The translations under genes were made by a program, and so were the position numbers. The notes beneath the pieces are model-generated. The model did not search any database and had not been told where the DNA came from. It saw nothing but the letters and a program-made list of their open reading frames with translations. This document shows positions 14,322-21,505 of a stretch of 34,294 nt of DNA, piece by piece; positions within the stretch are counted from its first letter, which is position 1, and each line of letters starts with the position of its first letter. Origin of the DNA: Candidatus Methylopumilus sp. (GTDB lineage: Bacteria > Pseudomonadota > Gammaproteobacteria > Burkholderiales > Burkholderiaceae_B); NCBI GenBank assembly GCA_021738045.1, contig JAIPCU010000014.1, positions 1 to 34,294 of the forward strand. Direction: 5' to 3'.

Positions 14322-15206
14322 CTATTTTCGACTTTGCTCGATCAGTTCACAAATGGGCTCGGCCGCTTCGATTAAGCGTGGACCAGACCGAAACACGGCA
14401 TCCGCATCCACCATAAATACGCGACCTAGCCGCGCCGCCGGCAGGCCTGCGCTCTGCCAGTGACTCACACCGGCGCTATCCACGACTGGCGCGGCCCCCG
14501 CACCGATGCGTGCGATTAGCACTAACTCAGGCGCTCGGGCAGCTAGCTGCGCAAGACTGAGCTTTGGTGCCCCCACTCCGTCTTCGGTGATGATGTTGCT
14601 GCCGCCACATAACGTGACGACGTCAGATAAGAGATGCTCGCGCGTCAAGGCGCCCTCGGGTTCGGTGCCAGCCTGCAGCAACACCCGCACGACGCGCTTG
14701 CCGGCAGCCGCCCGGGCCAAGGCGTCTAACTTCTGGCGTAGGGCCTGCGCGCGCGCCTGCGCGACTGGGGCGGTACCTAACAGAACACCAAAGGTTTCGA
14801 CGCTGTCTGCGATTTCAATGAGCGAGGTAGGTGTGCTGATAAATATGGGGACGTTCAGCGCTTTGAGCGAGTCAAGTTCAGTGGTCAGCCAGCCAAATAT
14901 TAAATCTGGCTTGTACGCTGCCACACGAGCTGGCTCTGGCGCGCGTTGATCACCAAGCTTTTGCAGGCTAAGAGCCTGGGGCGGAAAATTACTACCCTCT
15001 GTCGTTGCCACCAACTTATCGCCGCCACCTGCAGCAAAAATTAACTCAGTGGTGTGAGGCGAAAGCGAGACGACCCGACGGGCGGGCCCTTTGAGTAGTA
15101 CCGCGCGACCGCTGTCATCGATGACCTCGATTTCAGTCGCACTAGCTGCGAAGGTCAAGACACAGCACACTAGAAAACTAGCCCGACAAAAAAACGCGCG
15201 CATCAC
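14322..15206 (-). CDS. btuF: Periplasmic cobalamin-binding protein of the BtuF type
   Basis: The 294-residue product begins with a hydrophobic signal sequence ending near AASATE (about residue 24), followed by a helical-backbone class III binding-protein fold. VVSLSPHTTELIFAAGGGDKLVATT is the typical BtuF N-lobe start, with LGDQRAPEPARVAAYKPDLIFGW behind it. It would deliver cobalamin from the periplasm to a BtuCD transporter. It lies 33 bases downstream of the BtuB-type receptor under the same cobalamin riboswitch, which supports cobalamin rather than haem or siderophore as substrate. No btuC or btuD is in the window. Adjacent ATGs at 15206 and 15203 are both possible starts. Confidence 0.85.
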   Translation of the reverse strand: MMRAFFCRASFLVCCVLTFAASATEIEVIDDSGRAVLLKGPARRVVSLSPHTTELIFAAGGGDKLVATTEGSNFPPQALSLQKLGDQRAPEPARVAAYKPDLIFGWLTTELDSLKALNVPIFISTPTSLIEIADSVETFGVLLGTAPVAQARAQALRQKLDALARAAAGKRVVRVLLQAGTEPEGALTREHLLSDVVTLCGGSNIITEDGVGAPKLSLAQLAARAPELVLIARIGAGAAPVVDSAGVSHWQSAGLPAARLGRVFMVDADAVFRSGPRLIEAAEPICELIEQSRK

Positions 15207-15239: not shown

Positions 15240-17240
15240 CTACATCCGCCACGCCAAGTTGACAAATACATTCGAGCCCAAGGTGCTGTAGCCCTGTATA
15301 AGTGTGTACTGTTTGCCAAAGACGTTGTTCCAGCGCACTTGCACTTCAGCGCCAGAGGGTAGGGGATAGCTGCCCTGCAGGTTAAGTAAACTATAGCCAC
15401 CCAGAGTGCCGCCTGACATGGTGTCTTTGCGCTCGCTGCTGACATACCATTCGGCCGTTAAGCGGGCACGCCACAAGGCTTGATCTAACGCAAGTTTCGC
15501 AACTTGCTGCGCCCGTTGGGGCAATAAGGCTCCGGTCTCGGCGTTGCGTGGGTCAAGCCAGTTCAGGCTGCCTCGCACTTGCGTATCGCTGTTGAAGCGA
15601 TGCGAACCAAACAGACTGACGCCTTGAATCAGCGCCTGTCCGACATTGATTGGCGCGTAGGGTGAGTAAATATCCCCAGGTACCACCGGCTGAGTCAAGA
15701 TCAAGTTCGTGATCTCGTTGCGATACGCGACCAAACTTAATTGCGTTTTTTCAGTTGAGTACTTCAACCCCAGCTCGATATTGCGCGACTTCTCTGGTTG
15801 CAGAAAAGGGTTGCCCGCATAGAAAGGTGTCACCGGCCAGTAGAGTTCGTTAAAGTTAGGCGCACGAAAGCCTGTGTTGGCACCGACCGTGGCTCGCCAT
15901 TGCGGCGTGAGCGACAGCCCGTACACCAGGCTTCCCGTCACAAAGTTGCCGTACTGCGAATTATTGTCGTTGCGCACGCTTGCTTGCACCGACTGTGGTC
16001 CCCAAGCACCCCGATAGATCCCGAACAGCGAATTGGTGTACCGCGTGGTTTGTTGATAGTTCACAAAGGCGGCTTGTGGATAGCCGCCATTTGAAAGGGT
16101 GCCATCGACGCTCTGTTCTAAACGTTCGTAACCCAGAGATACGATCTGGGTAGGTGAAAACTTAAGGTCGTTTTGCCACAAGTATTGGCCTTGGCGCGTC
16201 GCAAAATGTTGCTTACCATCAAGCGGGTTATTCGGTACAAGATCAGAGCCAGCGTTCACCGTCTGATAGCGCTCGTTGGTATAGCCGGCACGTAACGTAC
16301 TTGTCCAAAAATCAGATATTCGATTTTTGCTGGTCAGCATATTGGTGCTGACAGTTTGAATGCCGCGGTCGTTGAAGTCAGGCGTGCCGGCATCGTAGCC
16401 GCCATTGACGCTAGATTGATAGCTTTGAAAAGTCAGTGTTTGACCCGGCTTCCAGGTGTAGCCTAAGGTGCCTCCGACGTTGCTACGGTAGTACGAGTCT
16501 TTGTCGGGGTTGTAAGAGTAATTGCCTGGTTTCGTGGCGTTGGTGCCCCCGCTCTGGCCGTACCCGCCAAACAAGCTGTAGACCCAGCCGTCTGCAGCTC
16601 CTGACAATCCCGCGTCATATTGTGTGGTGCCGTAGCTGCCGACCCCTGTATTCGCATAGGCCGAAAACGGCCGATCTTGGTCGCCCCGCGTGATGATGTT
16701 GATCACACCACCGATGGCATCTGCGCCATAGAGGCTGCTCGCGGTGCCTCGCACGATCTCAACGCGTTCGATACTGTTGAGTGGGATTGCACCCAGCGGC
16801 GCATCGCCGGTGGTGGCACTATTGATACGCAGGCCGTCAATCAAAATCAAGGATTGATTGCTATTGGTGCCGCGAATATTGACGCTGCTCAGCGGCTGCG
16901 GGCCACCATAGTTAAGCGCCTCGATCCCGTGTTCTCGAGCGAGCGCGTCAGCTAAGGTACCGTTCGGCAAGGTGTCAAGCTCCTCTCGACCGATCACACT
17001 GTTGTCGCCTAACGTGTCTGAAAGGGCCTCGGCGGTACGCCCAGGTGTTACTACGATAGTGGCAAGTTGCGGGGTGGGGCCAAGCTTTAGCTCGGCAACA
17101 GAGCTCTCGCGGGTTGCTTGGACAGAAACAGTGCTCGTCGCTGTCGTAGCCAAGTTTGAGGGGAGAGTTTGTGCGAGTGCGCTGGTCGAGACGGCCAAGG
17201 CCGCGGCAGCGGCGCCGAGCCGATAGGTTAAATGTTGCAT
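15240..17240 (-). CDS. btuB: TonB-dependent vitamin B12 receptor BtuB
   Basis: The 666-residue outer-membrane receptor starts with a signal peptide (cleavage likely after SALAQ, near 24), then a TonB-box-like ATIVVTPGR near 60. The plug domain includes VNIRGTNSNQSLILIDGLRIN and IERVEIVRGTASSLYGADAIGGVINIIT. A long beta-barrel region follows and ends in a terminal aromatic-containing strand (VNLAWRM). Length is near that of E. coli BtuB (614) allowing for an extended N-terminus. Its ATG has CGAGGTA six bases upstream. The cobalamin riboswitch in the leader and the btuF gene behind it make cobalamin the expected ligand. Confidence 0.9.
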   Translation of the reverse strand: MQHLTYRLGAAAAALAVSTSALAQTLPSNLATTATSTVSVQATRESSVAELKLGPTPQLATIVVTPGRTAEALSDTLGDNSVIGREELDTLPNGTLADALAREHGIEALNYGGPQPLSSVNIRGTNSNQSLILIDGLRINSATTGDAPLGAIPLNSIERVEIVRGTASSLYGADAIGGVINIITRGDQDRPFSAYANTGVGSYGTTQYDAGLSGAADGWVYSLFGGYGQSGGTNATKPGNYSYNPDKDSYYRSNVGGTLGYTWKPGQTLTFQSYQSSVNGGYDAGTPDFNDRGIQTVSTNMLTSKNRISDFWTSTLRAGYTNERYQTVNAGSDLVPNNPLDGKQHFATRQGQYLWQNDLKFSPTQIVSLGYERLEQSVDGTLSNGGYPQAAFVNYQQTTRYTNSLFGIYRGAWGPQSVQASVRNDNNSQYGNFVTGSLVYGLSLTPQWRATVGANTGFRAPNFNELYWPVTPFYAGNPFLQPEKSRNIELGLKYSTEKTQLSLVAYRNEITNLILTQPVVPGDIYSPYAPINVGQALIQGVSLFGSHRFNSDTQVRGSLNWLDPRNAETGALLPQRAQQVAKLALDQALWRARLTAEWYVSSERKDTMSGGTLGGYSLLNLQGSYPLPSGAEVQVRWNNVFGKQYTLIQGYSTLGSNVFVNLAWRM

Positions 17241-17330
17241 CAGTACTACCTCGTGTTGGTCTGCGTCCCCGCAGGCCTTGAACGTTCAAAAAGATTCCGT
17301 ACCCCGTGGGGTTGTTATCTTTGCTTAAAC
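17241..17330 (-). promoter_or_regulatory. Leader segment between cobalamin aptamer and btuB (candidate expression platform)
   Basis: Two structures are visible on the minus strand. One has an inner ACCCC/GGGGT pairing enclosed by AAAGAT/ATCTTT and ends in a run of five Ts, resembling a weak intrinsic terminator. The other, nearer the gene, is CTGCG-GGGA-CGCAG, about ten bases before the GAGG ribosome-binding site. Either could be the switch that reads out the aptamer; I cannot decide by eye. Confidence 0.4.
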
Positions 17331-17510
17331 TGGCCGGTATCGGGCTGGCACCAAGGTTTTATTGCTAAAACCTTGGTGTTGACCGTTGCGGGGGCAGCAC
17401 AGGCACAACCGTCTTGCGACGTGTTTCCCTGTTTCCCGTTTAACTTTCCCAATGCGGTACGCAACCCTAAAAGCGCGCACCTGTATGCATCGAAAGCACC
17501 AGTTCTAAGG
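17331..17510 (-). ncRNA. Cobalamin (AdoCbl/B12) riboswitch upstream of btuB
   Basis: On the minus strand the segment has the class landmarks in order: a GGTGC element, then AACGGGAAACAGG, the conserved core TGCTGCCCCCGCAAC, and the 3' element GCCAGCCCGATACCGGCC (the B12-box relative of GCCAGGAGACCTGCC). Between the last two sits a perfect 13-bp hairpin (17349-17361 with 17366-17378) closed by a GCAA tetraloop, at the position where this class carries an optional peripheral stem. It lies about 90 bases before the btuB start, so high cobalamin should lower receptor and binding-protein synthesis. End coordinates are approximate. Confidence 0.93.
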
Positions 17511-17724: not shown

Positions 17725-19632
17725 ATGGCTTACCCTAAACTACCTTTTCCGCTTGCAAGCTATACCCGAGGCGCTGACTTTGCGCGCGCGCTGGGTTCCC
17801 GCATCATGATTCTTGATGGTGCGATGGGCACCATGATTCAGCAATACAAACTCACTGAAGCCGACTTTCGCTCAGAGCGTCTTGCTGCTCACGGTAAAGA
17901 CGTTAAAGGCAACAACGAATTACTTTCGCTGACCCGCCCCGATATCATCCTTGAAATTCATAAGCAGTACCTCGCTGCTGGTTGCGACGTGATCGAAACC
18001 AACACCTTTGGTGCGACCACGATTGCGCAAGGGGATTACGAGCTAGCCGAGCTGGCTTATGAACAAAATATCGAGTCTGCTCGCCTGGCGCGAATCGCCT
18101 GCGATGCTTACAGCACGCCTGAGCGCCCACGCTTTGTCGCAGGCGCCTTAGGGCCTCAGCCTAAAACTGCTTCGATCTCACCCGATGTGAATGACCCGGG
18201 CGCGCGCAACGTGACGTTTGATGAATTGCGTGTGGCTTACACCGAGCAACTGAACGGTTTGCTCGATGGTGGGGTCGATCTCATTTTGATTGAAACCATT
18301 TTCGATACGCTGAACGCCAAGGCAGCAATTTTTGCGGTTGAAGAAGTCTTTGAAGCGCGCGGTGAGCGCCTGCCTGTGATGATTTCTGGCACCGTCACTG
18401 ACGCCTCAGGGCGGATTTTGTCGGGTCAAACCGTCGAGGGGTTCTGGAACTCAGTTCGTCACGCGCGCCCCATCACGATTGGTTTGAATTGCGCACTCGG
18501 TGCGGCGCTGATGCGTCCCTATATCGCCGAGCTTGCAAAGATTTGTGATACCTACGTTTGCGTGTATCCCAATGCGGGTCTACCAAATCCCATGAGTGAT
18601 ACTGGCTTTGATGAAACGCCCGCAGACACTTCAGCGTTGCTTGAAGAGTTCGCCCGCGCAGGCTTGGTCAATATGGCTGGTGGTTGTTGCGGAACCACAC
18701 CCGAACACATTCAAGCGATTGCCGAAAAAGTTCAAGCCTTGCCTATCCGGGTGGTACCCGAGATCGCGGTTAAAACGCGTCTGTCAGGTCTTGAGGCGCT
18801 GAACATCGATGATGAATCGCTGTTTGTTAACGTTGGCGAGCGTGCGAACGTCACGGGCAGTAAGGCCTTTGCCCGCTTAATCCGCGAAGAAAAATACGAC
18901 GAGGCCGTTGCGGTCGCACGCCAACAAGTTGAAAATGGCGCGCAAATCATTGATATCAACATGGACGAAGCCATGCTTGATTCGGTGGCGTGCATGCATC
19001 GCTTTTTGAACATGATCGCCTCAGAGCCCGACATCGCACGCGTGCCGGTCATGATCGATAGTTCAAAGTGGTCTGTCATTGAAACCGGCCTAAAGTGCGT
19101 GCAAGGCAAATCGATCGTGAATTCGATCTCGTTAAAAGAGGGTGAAGAGCCGTTCTTAAAACAAGCGCGGTTATGTCGCTTATACGGCGCCGCCGCTGTG
19201 GTGATGGCCTTTGACGAAAAAGGTCAGGCCGATACGCTTGAGCGTCGCAAAATGATTTGTACGCGCGCTTACAACTTGTTGATCGACAAGGTTGGGTTTC
19301 CGCCCGAAGATATTATTTTTGATCCAAACGTCTTTGCCATCGCCACGGGCATCGACGAGCATAACCACTACGCAGTCGATTTCATTGAGTCCACCAAATG
19401 GATTCGAGAGAATCTGCCTCACGCACGCATCTCTGGCGGGGTCTCGAATGTCAGTTTCTCGTTCAGAGGCAACGAACCGATCCGCGAGGCAATTCATACG
19501 GTGTTTTTGTATCACGCGATTCGCGAAGGCATGACCATGGGGATCGTCAACGCGGGCCAATTGGGCGTGTACGCCAATATCGACCCAGTGTTGCGCGAGT
19601 TAGTTGAAGACGTGGTGCTAGATCGTGAATAA
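17725..19632 (+). CDS. metH: Methionine synthase MetH, N-terminal part (homocysteine and methyl-folate domains)
   Basis: MetH transfers a methyl group from 5-methyltetrahydrofolate to homocysteine via cobalamin. This frame encodes the first two of its four modules. The homocysteine domain (about 20-345) has the zinc-ligand cysteines in IGLNCALG (Cys256) and [10 protein letters not shown] (Cys321, Cys322). The pterin-binding domain (about 365-635) includes [13 protein letters not shown] and INMDEAMLD. It stops at [10 protein letters not shown], exactly where other MetH proteins run into the cobalamin-binding cap, and the remainder is in the next frame. Start is the ATG at 17725 (a GTG at 17722 is possible); there is no good ribosome-binding site. 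All key residues are intact. Confidence 0.9.
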
Positions 19633-21505
19633 AGCCAAAGCGCTGGGCAAAAAAGATTTAAACGATACGCGCACGCCAACCGAGCGCTTGGTTGAATTCG
19701 CCGAAAACTTTAAAGGCAACGGCATCAAGCGCGAAGAAGACCTTGCATGGCGCCAGCAATCGGTAGATAAGCGTCTGGCCCATGCCATGGTGCACGGCAT
19801 GACGCAGTTTATTGTTGAAGATACTGAAGAAATTCGCCAGCAGATTGCCGATCGCAACGGTCGCCCCATCGAGGTGATCGAAGGCCCGCTCATGGATGGC
19901 ATGAACATCGTGGGCGATTTGTTTGGTGAAGGAAAAATGTTTTTGCCGCAGGTGGTGAAGTCTGCCCGCGTGATGAAGCAAGCCGTCGGGCACCTGATCC
20001 CGTTTATCGAAGCTGAAAAAAAGCTCATCGAGGCTGCGGGTGGTGACGTCCGTGCAAAAGGCAAAATCGTGATCGCAACCGTCAAGGGCGATGTGCACGA
20101 TATTGGCAAAAACATCGTCACGGTGGTGCTTCAGTGTAATAACTTTGAAGTCGTCAATATGGGTGTGATGGTGCCGGCCGCCGAGATTTTGGCGCGCGCC
20201 AAAGCAGAAAAAGCTGACATTGTTGGCCTATCGGGTTTGATTACGCCAAGCCTTGAAGAGATGGCCTACGTCGCCAGCGAGATGCAGCGCGATGAATATT
20301 TTCGCAGCCGCAAAATCCCGTTGATGATTGGCGGCGCCACAACCAGTCGGGTGCATACGGCTGTAAAAATTGCGCCGCATTATGAGGGCCCAGTGATTTA
20401 TGTACCGGATGCCAGCCGTTCGGTGGGTGTTGCGCAAAATCTGGTCTCTGAAACCGCCAATACGTATCTTGAAGAGCTTGCCGTTGAGTACGAGGACGTA
20501 CGTCGTCGCCATGCTGCACGAAAAGCCACGCCGCTGATGTCGCTGGTGGATGCGCGTGCCGCAAAGCTCGCGATTGATTGGGCGGGCTATACGCCGCCGC
20601 GCCCAAAATTTATTGGTCGCCGCACCTTCAAAAATTTCGACTTGGCCGAGTTGGCAAGCTACATCGATTGGACGCCGTTTTTTCAAACGTGGAGCTTGTT
20701 TGGTCAATATCCGGCAATCTTAGAGGACAAAATTGTGGGCGAACAAGCCCGGTCGGTGTTGGCCGATGGCCAGGCGATGCTTAAACGCATGGTCGATGGC
20801 CGCTGGTTAACAGCCAATGGCGTTGCGGCGTTTTACCCTGCCAATACTGTCAATGATGATGACATCGAAATCTACACAGACGAGACGCGCGAAAAAGTAT
20901 TGTTCACCTGGCGTGGTTTGCGTCAGCAGGGCATGAAGCGCGAGGGTATTGAAAACAAATGTTTGGCTGACTTTATTGCGCCCAAAGAGTCTGGCGTGAT
21001 GGATTACATCGGTTTGTTTGCGGTCACAGCAGGCTTGGGTATCGAGAAAAAAGAACAAGAATTTGAACGTGCCAACGACGACTATTCAGCGATTATGTTT
21101 AAGTCTTTGGCTGATCGCTGCGCAGAGGCGTTTGCCGAGGCGCTTCACGCGCGTGTTCGCAAAGATATTTGGGGCTATGTGCCCGATGAGTCTTTGACCA
21201 ACGAGCAAATGATCAAAGAAGCCTATCAAGGGATCCGGCCTGCGCCAGGCTACCCTGCTTGCCCAGAGCATGTGGTCAAACGTGAAATGTTTGAGGTGCT
21301 TGACGGTGCCGATATCGGCATGATGCTGACAGAAAGCTATGCCATGCACCCTGCAGCCAGCGTATCGGGATTTTATTTTAGCCACCCACAGTCGCAGTAC
21401 TTTAGCGTGGGCATCATTGGCGATGATCAAGTAGCCGATTACGTCAAGCGCTCGGGTCGCACAGAAAAAGACGTTAAAAGAACGTTGGCGCCTAATCTAG
21501 GCTGA
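19625..21505 (+). CDS. metH: Methionine synthase MetH, C-terminal part (cobalamin-binding and reactivation domains), in a shifted frame
   Basis: This 626-residue frame carries the other half of MetH. A helical cap (about 15-140) is followed by the cobalamin-binding motif [13 protein letters not shown] with the cobalt-ligating His158, plus [13 protein letters not shown] and [11 protein letters not shown]. The C-terminal reactivation domain has the SAM-binding stretch [12 protein letters not shown]. It lies +1 relative to the N-terminal frame. Its only upstream start is a GTG at 19625 that overlaps the previous TAA by eight bases, with a weak, distant GAAG. Together the two frames total about 1,262 residues, the length of whole MetH. 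It may be a real split gene, a recoding site or a one-base indel. Confidence 0.88.

Follow-up and report, generated by a model that had tools for sequence, protein, structure and literature searches.

Cobalamin-dependent methionine synthase split between its folate and Cap modules throughout a sub-clade of Candidatus Methylopumilus

The cobalamin-dependent methionine synthase MetH is a textbook example of an enzyme that is both large and modular, and its cobalamin domain has to reach three partners. In Escherichia coli, human MTR and Thermus its homocysteine (Hcy), folate (Fol), Cap, cobalamin (Cob) and activation (Act) modules follow one another on a single chain. The flexible linkers of MetH are thought to orchestrate its domain movements, and a Thermus structure had to leave Linker II unmodelled (PMC10567725); in human MTR the Fol-Cap segment is named a flexible linker (PMC13376404). 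Splits of the enzyme are already known, GapMind describing those of Burkholderia and Bacteroides and the three-part enzyme of Phaeobacter (PMC7311316, PMC5764234). The cut reported for B. phytofirmans leaves Hcy apart from Fol-Cap-Cob-Act (metHa/metHb; BPHYT_RS02310 and BPHYT_RS02305; PMC7311316, PMC4364669), and that for Bacteroides thetaiotaomicron leaves Hcy-Fol-Cap-Cob apart from Act (BT0180 and BT0249; PMC7311316). The MtgC/D/E system of Phaeobacter and Ruegeria also places the folate module and the corrinoid module on different proteins that cooperate in vivo, but is described as three unlinked proteins with RamA-like reactivation that are not derived from classical MetH (PMC12478193, PMC5764234). 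Here we describe a metH gene whose cut separates Fol from Cap near Linker II, in a 34,294-nucleotide stretch of DNA from Candidatus Methylopumilus sp. (the window; assembly GCA_021738045.1, contig JAIPCU010000014.1, positions 1 to 34,294, forward strand). This arrangement very probably represents a clade-fixed fission of cobalamin-dependent metH into two translationally coupled genes.

The window's metH is a cobalamin-dependent methionine synthase split in two open reading frames (ORFs), whose predicted catalysis is backed by a low ratio of nonsynonymous to synonymous substitution rates (dN/dS). The N-half gene (17725-19632, plus strand) encodes 635 residues from its ATG, upstream of which lies an in-frame GTG (17722), and carries the Hcy and Fol triosephosphate isomerase (TIM) barrels (PF02574 and PF00809). 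The C-half gene (19625-21505, plus strand) starts with GTG in the +1 frame relative to the N-half ORF and encodes 626 residues comprising Cap, Cob and Act (PF02607, PF02310 and PF02965). Both genes share the 8 nucleotides GTGAATAA (19625-19632, plus strand), which hold the GTG start of the second and the TAA stop of the first. All five Pfam families exceeded their curated cut-offs across the two ORFs, in the order Hcy-Fol-Cap-Cob-Act. The motifs GLNC (253) and GGCC (319) in the N half and DVHDIG (156) and RPAPGYP (538) in the C half were all found; we take them to represent the zinc cysteines, the cobalamin-ligating histidine (DVHDIG) and the S-adenosylmethionine (AdoMet) motif. DVHDIG is unchanged in all 16 aligned C halves. 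Modules, order and motifs thus match single-chain MetH, from which the locus departs in consisting of two ORFs, as it does in all 12 members of its clade. Computed masses are 69.4 kDa for the N half and 69.7 kDa for the C half. These results bear out a first-pass annotation of this DNA, which had read a complete set of MetH modules and motifs in two overlapping frames, a GTG start overlapping the TAA in a +1 frame, and halves of about 69 kDa each.

The best structural matches of both ORFs were PDB MetH chains. The N half aligned with the human N-half construct 4CCZ and the C half, from residue 40 onward, with the crystallised E. coli C-terminal fragment. Alignments to chain 9ssp put the cut at approximately residue 638-641 of human MTR, and therefore 3' of the folate barrel. 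The engineered human halves (16-657 and 661-1265) have their ends about 20 residues further along. The cut falls where the catalytic N-half of human MTR gives way to its cofactor C-half; the human work reports that the two were purified apart, that each bound its own ligands, and that they were observed as distinct particles (PMC13376404). Like the Burkholderia-type enzyme this is a two-gene MetH in Burkholderiales, but Hcy and Fol share one ORF instead of being parted by the break, which, as the earlier annotation had pointed out, is described after Hcy in that type (PMC7311316). Cob and Act likewise share an ORF, unlike in the Bacteroides type. In contrast to MtgCDE the locus retains PF02965 and has Hcy together with Fol; it is a classical MetH, Act domain included, that underwent fission recently. 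Among split MetH the Hcy-Fol / Cap-Cob-Act cut is new; no earlier report of a natural Fol/Cap split was found in the literature searched, outside which most subscription papers lay.

To map the split we searched 32 genomes of the genus, one per species, with the C half, and read the junctions in the fetched stretches. The C half was matched in 31 genomes (G025 gave no match). An 8-nucleotide overlap of the form GTG-NN-TAR was present in 12 of them (G000, G018, G007, G027, G019, G030, G017, G004, G006, G024, G009 and G012), the N-half stop being TAA in 11 and TAG in G007. All 18 other congeners with a readable junction had one open frame across it. Among these, G003 was counted as intact on the basis of a 733-residue frame open across the junction, its start having been removed by the contig start; G022 was without the junction region. 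When a tree was built from 35 metH genes (12 split, 17 intact congeners and 6 outgroups, with G022 and G003 excluded), the split species fell on one side of one branch with 100/100 support, corresponding to one change. Since the overlap is common to all 12 members of one clade it is not a product of chance, and the split is an inherited feature of the whole sub-clade with a single origin. Within this clade both halves are 94-99 % identical to the window copy, and the residues fixed for a new state number 8 in the N half and 7 in the C half (start included). CAMCII010000003.1 and JAURJT010000034.1, metagenome-assembled genomes from different projects, carry the split.

The locus is orthologous to that of the intact congeners, most of which have both a TonB receptor and an acyltransferase beside metH. 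A TonB-receptor homologue was present in the fetched metH stretch of all 12 split genomes and an acyltransferase gene near metH in 10, the contigs of the remaining two ending inside metH. Several single loci deserve mention. CAMCII010000003.1 (L033) is titled as a Bordetella parapertussis metagenome-assembled genome; this title looks wrong, because its MetH is 97-98 % like the window's, whereas the Bordetella loci L038 and L039 encode a MetH just 79-85 % like the window's. In G022 (L141, G022:C31:12000-24000) metH runs directly from N residue 511 into C residue 153 within one open frame of 1029 residues; the missing part, from the end of Fol through Cap to the start of Cob, reflects a deletion or a chimeric assembly. 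The intact congener G020 has a second metH C half (G020:C128:1296-3158), 67 % identical, in an open frame of 919 residues as in Burkholderia-type splits; it may reflect contamination or a second gene.

In wider samples of 161 family genomes (8 of them of the genus) and 150 phylum genomes, the Hcy-Fol / Cap-Cob-Act architecture is confined to this clade. The C half was found in 141 of the 161 family genomes, and outside the genus 129 of 133 had open frames longer than 1200 residues. The four exceptions were G140, G072 and the partial matches G076 and G165. On contig C11 of G140 (L149 and L153), from another genus, metH is broken in the same linker (open frame 643); this was read as a misassembly and rejected as a split, the halves lying about 95 kb apart on one contig with long G/C runs flanking both breaks. 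G072 (1063) stays in frame over the junction and is truncated by its contig end. In the phylum sample 122 of 150 genomes matched, and frames of 560-720 residues occurred only in G000, G212 and G304. Candidate splits in G212, G304 and G289 (667, 697 and 814 residues) were dismissed, as their frames run off contig ends.

We then compared the length of the junction between split and intact genes. From the last Asp-Arg codons to the codons for R-T/D/S-P-T-E-R there are 43 nucleotides in all 12 split genomes and 36 in all 18 intact congeners and two outgroups (G033 and G032 were left out of the count). The difference is therefore +7 nucleotides and not a one-base change. A founding tandem duplication of GATCGTG would give +7 nucleotides and place a GTG, with no residue lost from the second frame, and G007 still reads GTG-GAT at the proposed place. 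However, just three of the seven bases match the proposed copy, and G007 is nested among TAA species. A tandem-duplication origin of the 7 nucleotides therefore stays an idea.

Purifying selection on each half is strong. For the split clade we obtained a median dN/dS of 0.019 for the N half (12 species, 66 pairs, 65 with usable dS) and, over 10 species and 45 pairs (G009 and G012 were excluded due to contig ends), of 0.031 for the C half, compared with 0.030 and 0.027 for the corresponding parts in 17 intact congeners. Because many dS values are near saturation (medians of 1.27 and 0.72 for the N and C halves of the split clade, and above 2 in the intact set), these ratios are rough. The close pair G000-G018 agrees, with dN of 0.003 and dS of 0.34 and 0.20.

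The split clade also displays what we read as signs of a second translation start. Codons V627-R634 (19603-19626, plus strand), 5' of the GTG, are synonymously constrained, as might be expected of an initiation region for the second gene: synonymous diversity averaged 0.152 against 0.409 gene-wide, with 2 of 530 windows as low. In nine intact sister genomes the same codons gave 0.406 against 0.464 (149 of 523 windows as low). Across the 12 split species 21 of 267 fourfold-degenerate columns of the N half are invariant, including four of the last five. Mean diversity of these five was 0.148 versus 0.477 gene-wide (2 of 263 windows as low), compared with 0.378 in the nine intact sisters (15 of 256) and 0.562 in 17 intact congeners (72 of 202). 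The GTG is kept in all 12 species, and the CGT that completes it is one of two invariant among 36 CGN columns. Over the first 10 codons after the GTG the A content is 0.48, whereas the 18 intact genomes have 0.23 at the corresponding site; within their own gene, which offers 907-1260 positions for comparison, these codons rank 1st to 113th.

How these genes are translated was weighed between coupling and recoding. Termination-reinitiation over short overlaps is well documented, and gene pairs at -8 to +10 nucleotides, a stop-start class that includes the window overlap, are reported to be enriched for complex subunits 4.5-fold in E. coli and 8.1-fold in H. volcanii (PMC10666635). The well-known overlaps of coupled pairs are ATGA and TGATG (PMC6728339), whereas here the GTG starts 5 nucleotides upstream of the stop. 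Programmed +1 frameshifting at the N-half stop would instead yield full-length MetH, alone or beside the short product. The +1 frame does continue the protein with no residue lost, shifting at the stop would fuse the two halves in all 12 species, and the conserved bases 5' of the stop would also suit a recoding signal. Against this, the site itself varies among the 12 species (GAA-TAA-A, GAG-TAA-A and GGA-TAG-C), which makes it unsuited to slippage, and no conserved slippery codon of the prfB kind was seen at the stop in these species, judged by eye and with pairing rules that we assume. By these presumed rules the P-site transfer RNA would re-pair poorly one base on at these stops, unlike in prfB. 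The wobble T of CGT, for which recoding has no need but which the GTG start requires, is present in 12 of 12, and the codons after the GTG became A-rich in the split clade only. Furthermore, in 4 of the 12 genomes a stop closes the +1 frame one codon 5' of the GTG, so that a shift would have to fall within the three codons GAT-CGT-GAA. Recoding at the UAA, one of the possibilities raised by the first-pass annotation, is thus unlikely, given the replacement of GAA-TAA by GGA-TAG in a sister species and the frozen GTG. On account of the variable stop site, the closed +1 frame and the documented reinitiation over short overlaps, we infer as the best reading two coupled polypeptides made by termination-reinitiation at the GTG.

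The remaining explanations are less probable still. Decay into a pseudogene, with methionine made otherwise or taken up, could draw on full-length MetE in two of the 12 split genomes (G006 and G024) and on proteins of about 350 residues with weak MetE-domain similarity, below the cut-off, across the genus. It is very unlikely because dN/dS is as low as in the intact congeners; all modules and motifs are also retained, 10 of the 12 split genomes had no MetE above the cut-off, and MesX was absent from all 12. That the halves have become separate enzymes with new roles, the C half for instance serving other methyl donors, is more improbable again: the genes are adjacent and coupled in 12 of 12 genomes and 94-99 % identical to the window copy within the clade, with few residues fixed for a new state. 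Most remote is an error of assembly or sequencing, or an indel of one base at strain level, another option in the first-pass annotation. Most split genomes are indeed fragmented (30 to 760 contigs), and G140 shows that misassembly can break metH in this linker. Yet 12 separate, diverged assemblies (median N-half dS 1.27) share the same overlap, and a systematic error common to all of them is not displayed by intact congeners of the same collection. Dropping one T would fuse the frames by arithmetic, as had been noted, but the actual difference is 7 nucleotides. An uninterrupted frame occurs in 18 congeners, from which a whole clade differs by the split; the genuine two-gene split, the remaining option, is what the clade-wide distribution and the selection on each half support.

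Some observations sit less comfortably with a fission into two coupled genes. The support comes from genomic sequence. The junction offers weak Shine-Dalgarno pairing (-2.8 to -3.1 kcal/mol in 10 of 12 split genomes), which does not exceed that of the intact genomes and does not tell the two sets apart. Predicted messenger RNA (mRNA) folding at the junction is weaker on average in split than in intact genomes (-6.0 versus -12.9), but it is not extreme within the gene and is strong in G006 (-13.3). The true metH starts are not A-rich (0.17-0.27), and A-richness is therefore no rule for starts in metH. An AlphaFold model of the C half, built from 16 aligned sequences, was of low confidence (mean predicted local distance difference test, pLDDT, 47.5; predicted template modelling score, pTM, 0.36). 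Finally, several split genomes are incomplete (76-97 % complete across the clade), so the absence of MetE may in some cases be missing data.

If two coupled genes are nevertheless the correct interpretation, the common ancestor of the 12 sampled species would have gained a net 7 nucleotides between the folate barrel and the Cap domain, converting metH into two translationally coupled genes with every module retained. Ribosomes would end the Hcy-Fol protein at UAA or UAG and restart at the GUG 5 nucleotides upstream of that stop to make the Cap-Cob-Act protein, giving subunits of 69 and 70 kDa. The Cob domain of the C subunit would then shuttle the methyl group between two N-subunit sites, one for folate and one for homocysteine, with reactivation by the C subunit's own Act domain. 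A helix at residues 18-28 of the C half may provide a surface for docking. It is likely that the substrate and cofactor halves of a naturally occurring B12-dependent methionine synthase function as separate proteins that meet non-covalently. If so, nature can dispense with the covalent Fol-Cap linker, a proposed guide of domain movements, and has kept a fission at precisely this hinge while the gene's synonymous sites became nearly saturated. A lineage with a cut linker would provide a natural test of whether the tether is needed and what compensates for it. Automatic annotation would call such a gene frameshifted, and pathway tools that join split MetH candidates may meet this additional arrangement.

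The genomic context bears on the role of the split enzyme. Full MetE (PF08267 above cut-off) was present in 3 of the 20 other genus genomes, in addition to the two split genomes named above. Proteins of about 350-390 residues weakly resembling the MetE N-terminal domain, below the cut-off, occur in both split and intact congeners (for example G000:C30:4651-4938). For the alternative core enzyme MesD, MesX is reported to be needed (PMC7857596), and none of the 12 split genomes had a MesX match. Taken together, the ten MetE absences suggest that most split species rely mainly on split MetH for methionine synthesis. Divergent from metH in the window lie a cobalamin riboswitch (17315-17483, minus strand; RF00174, 39.2 bits, cut-off 31.5) and, behind it, a TonB-dependent receptor gene (15240-17240, minus strand; PF00593 and PF07715), BtuB-like by position and riboswitch, followed by the gene for a Peripla_BP_2 protein (14322-15206). 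The receptor, riboswitch and Peripla_BP_2 gene suggest a B12 uptake cluster.
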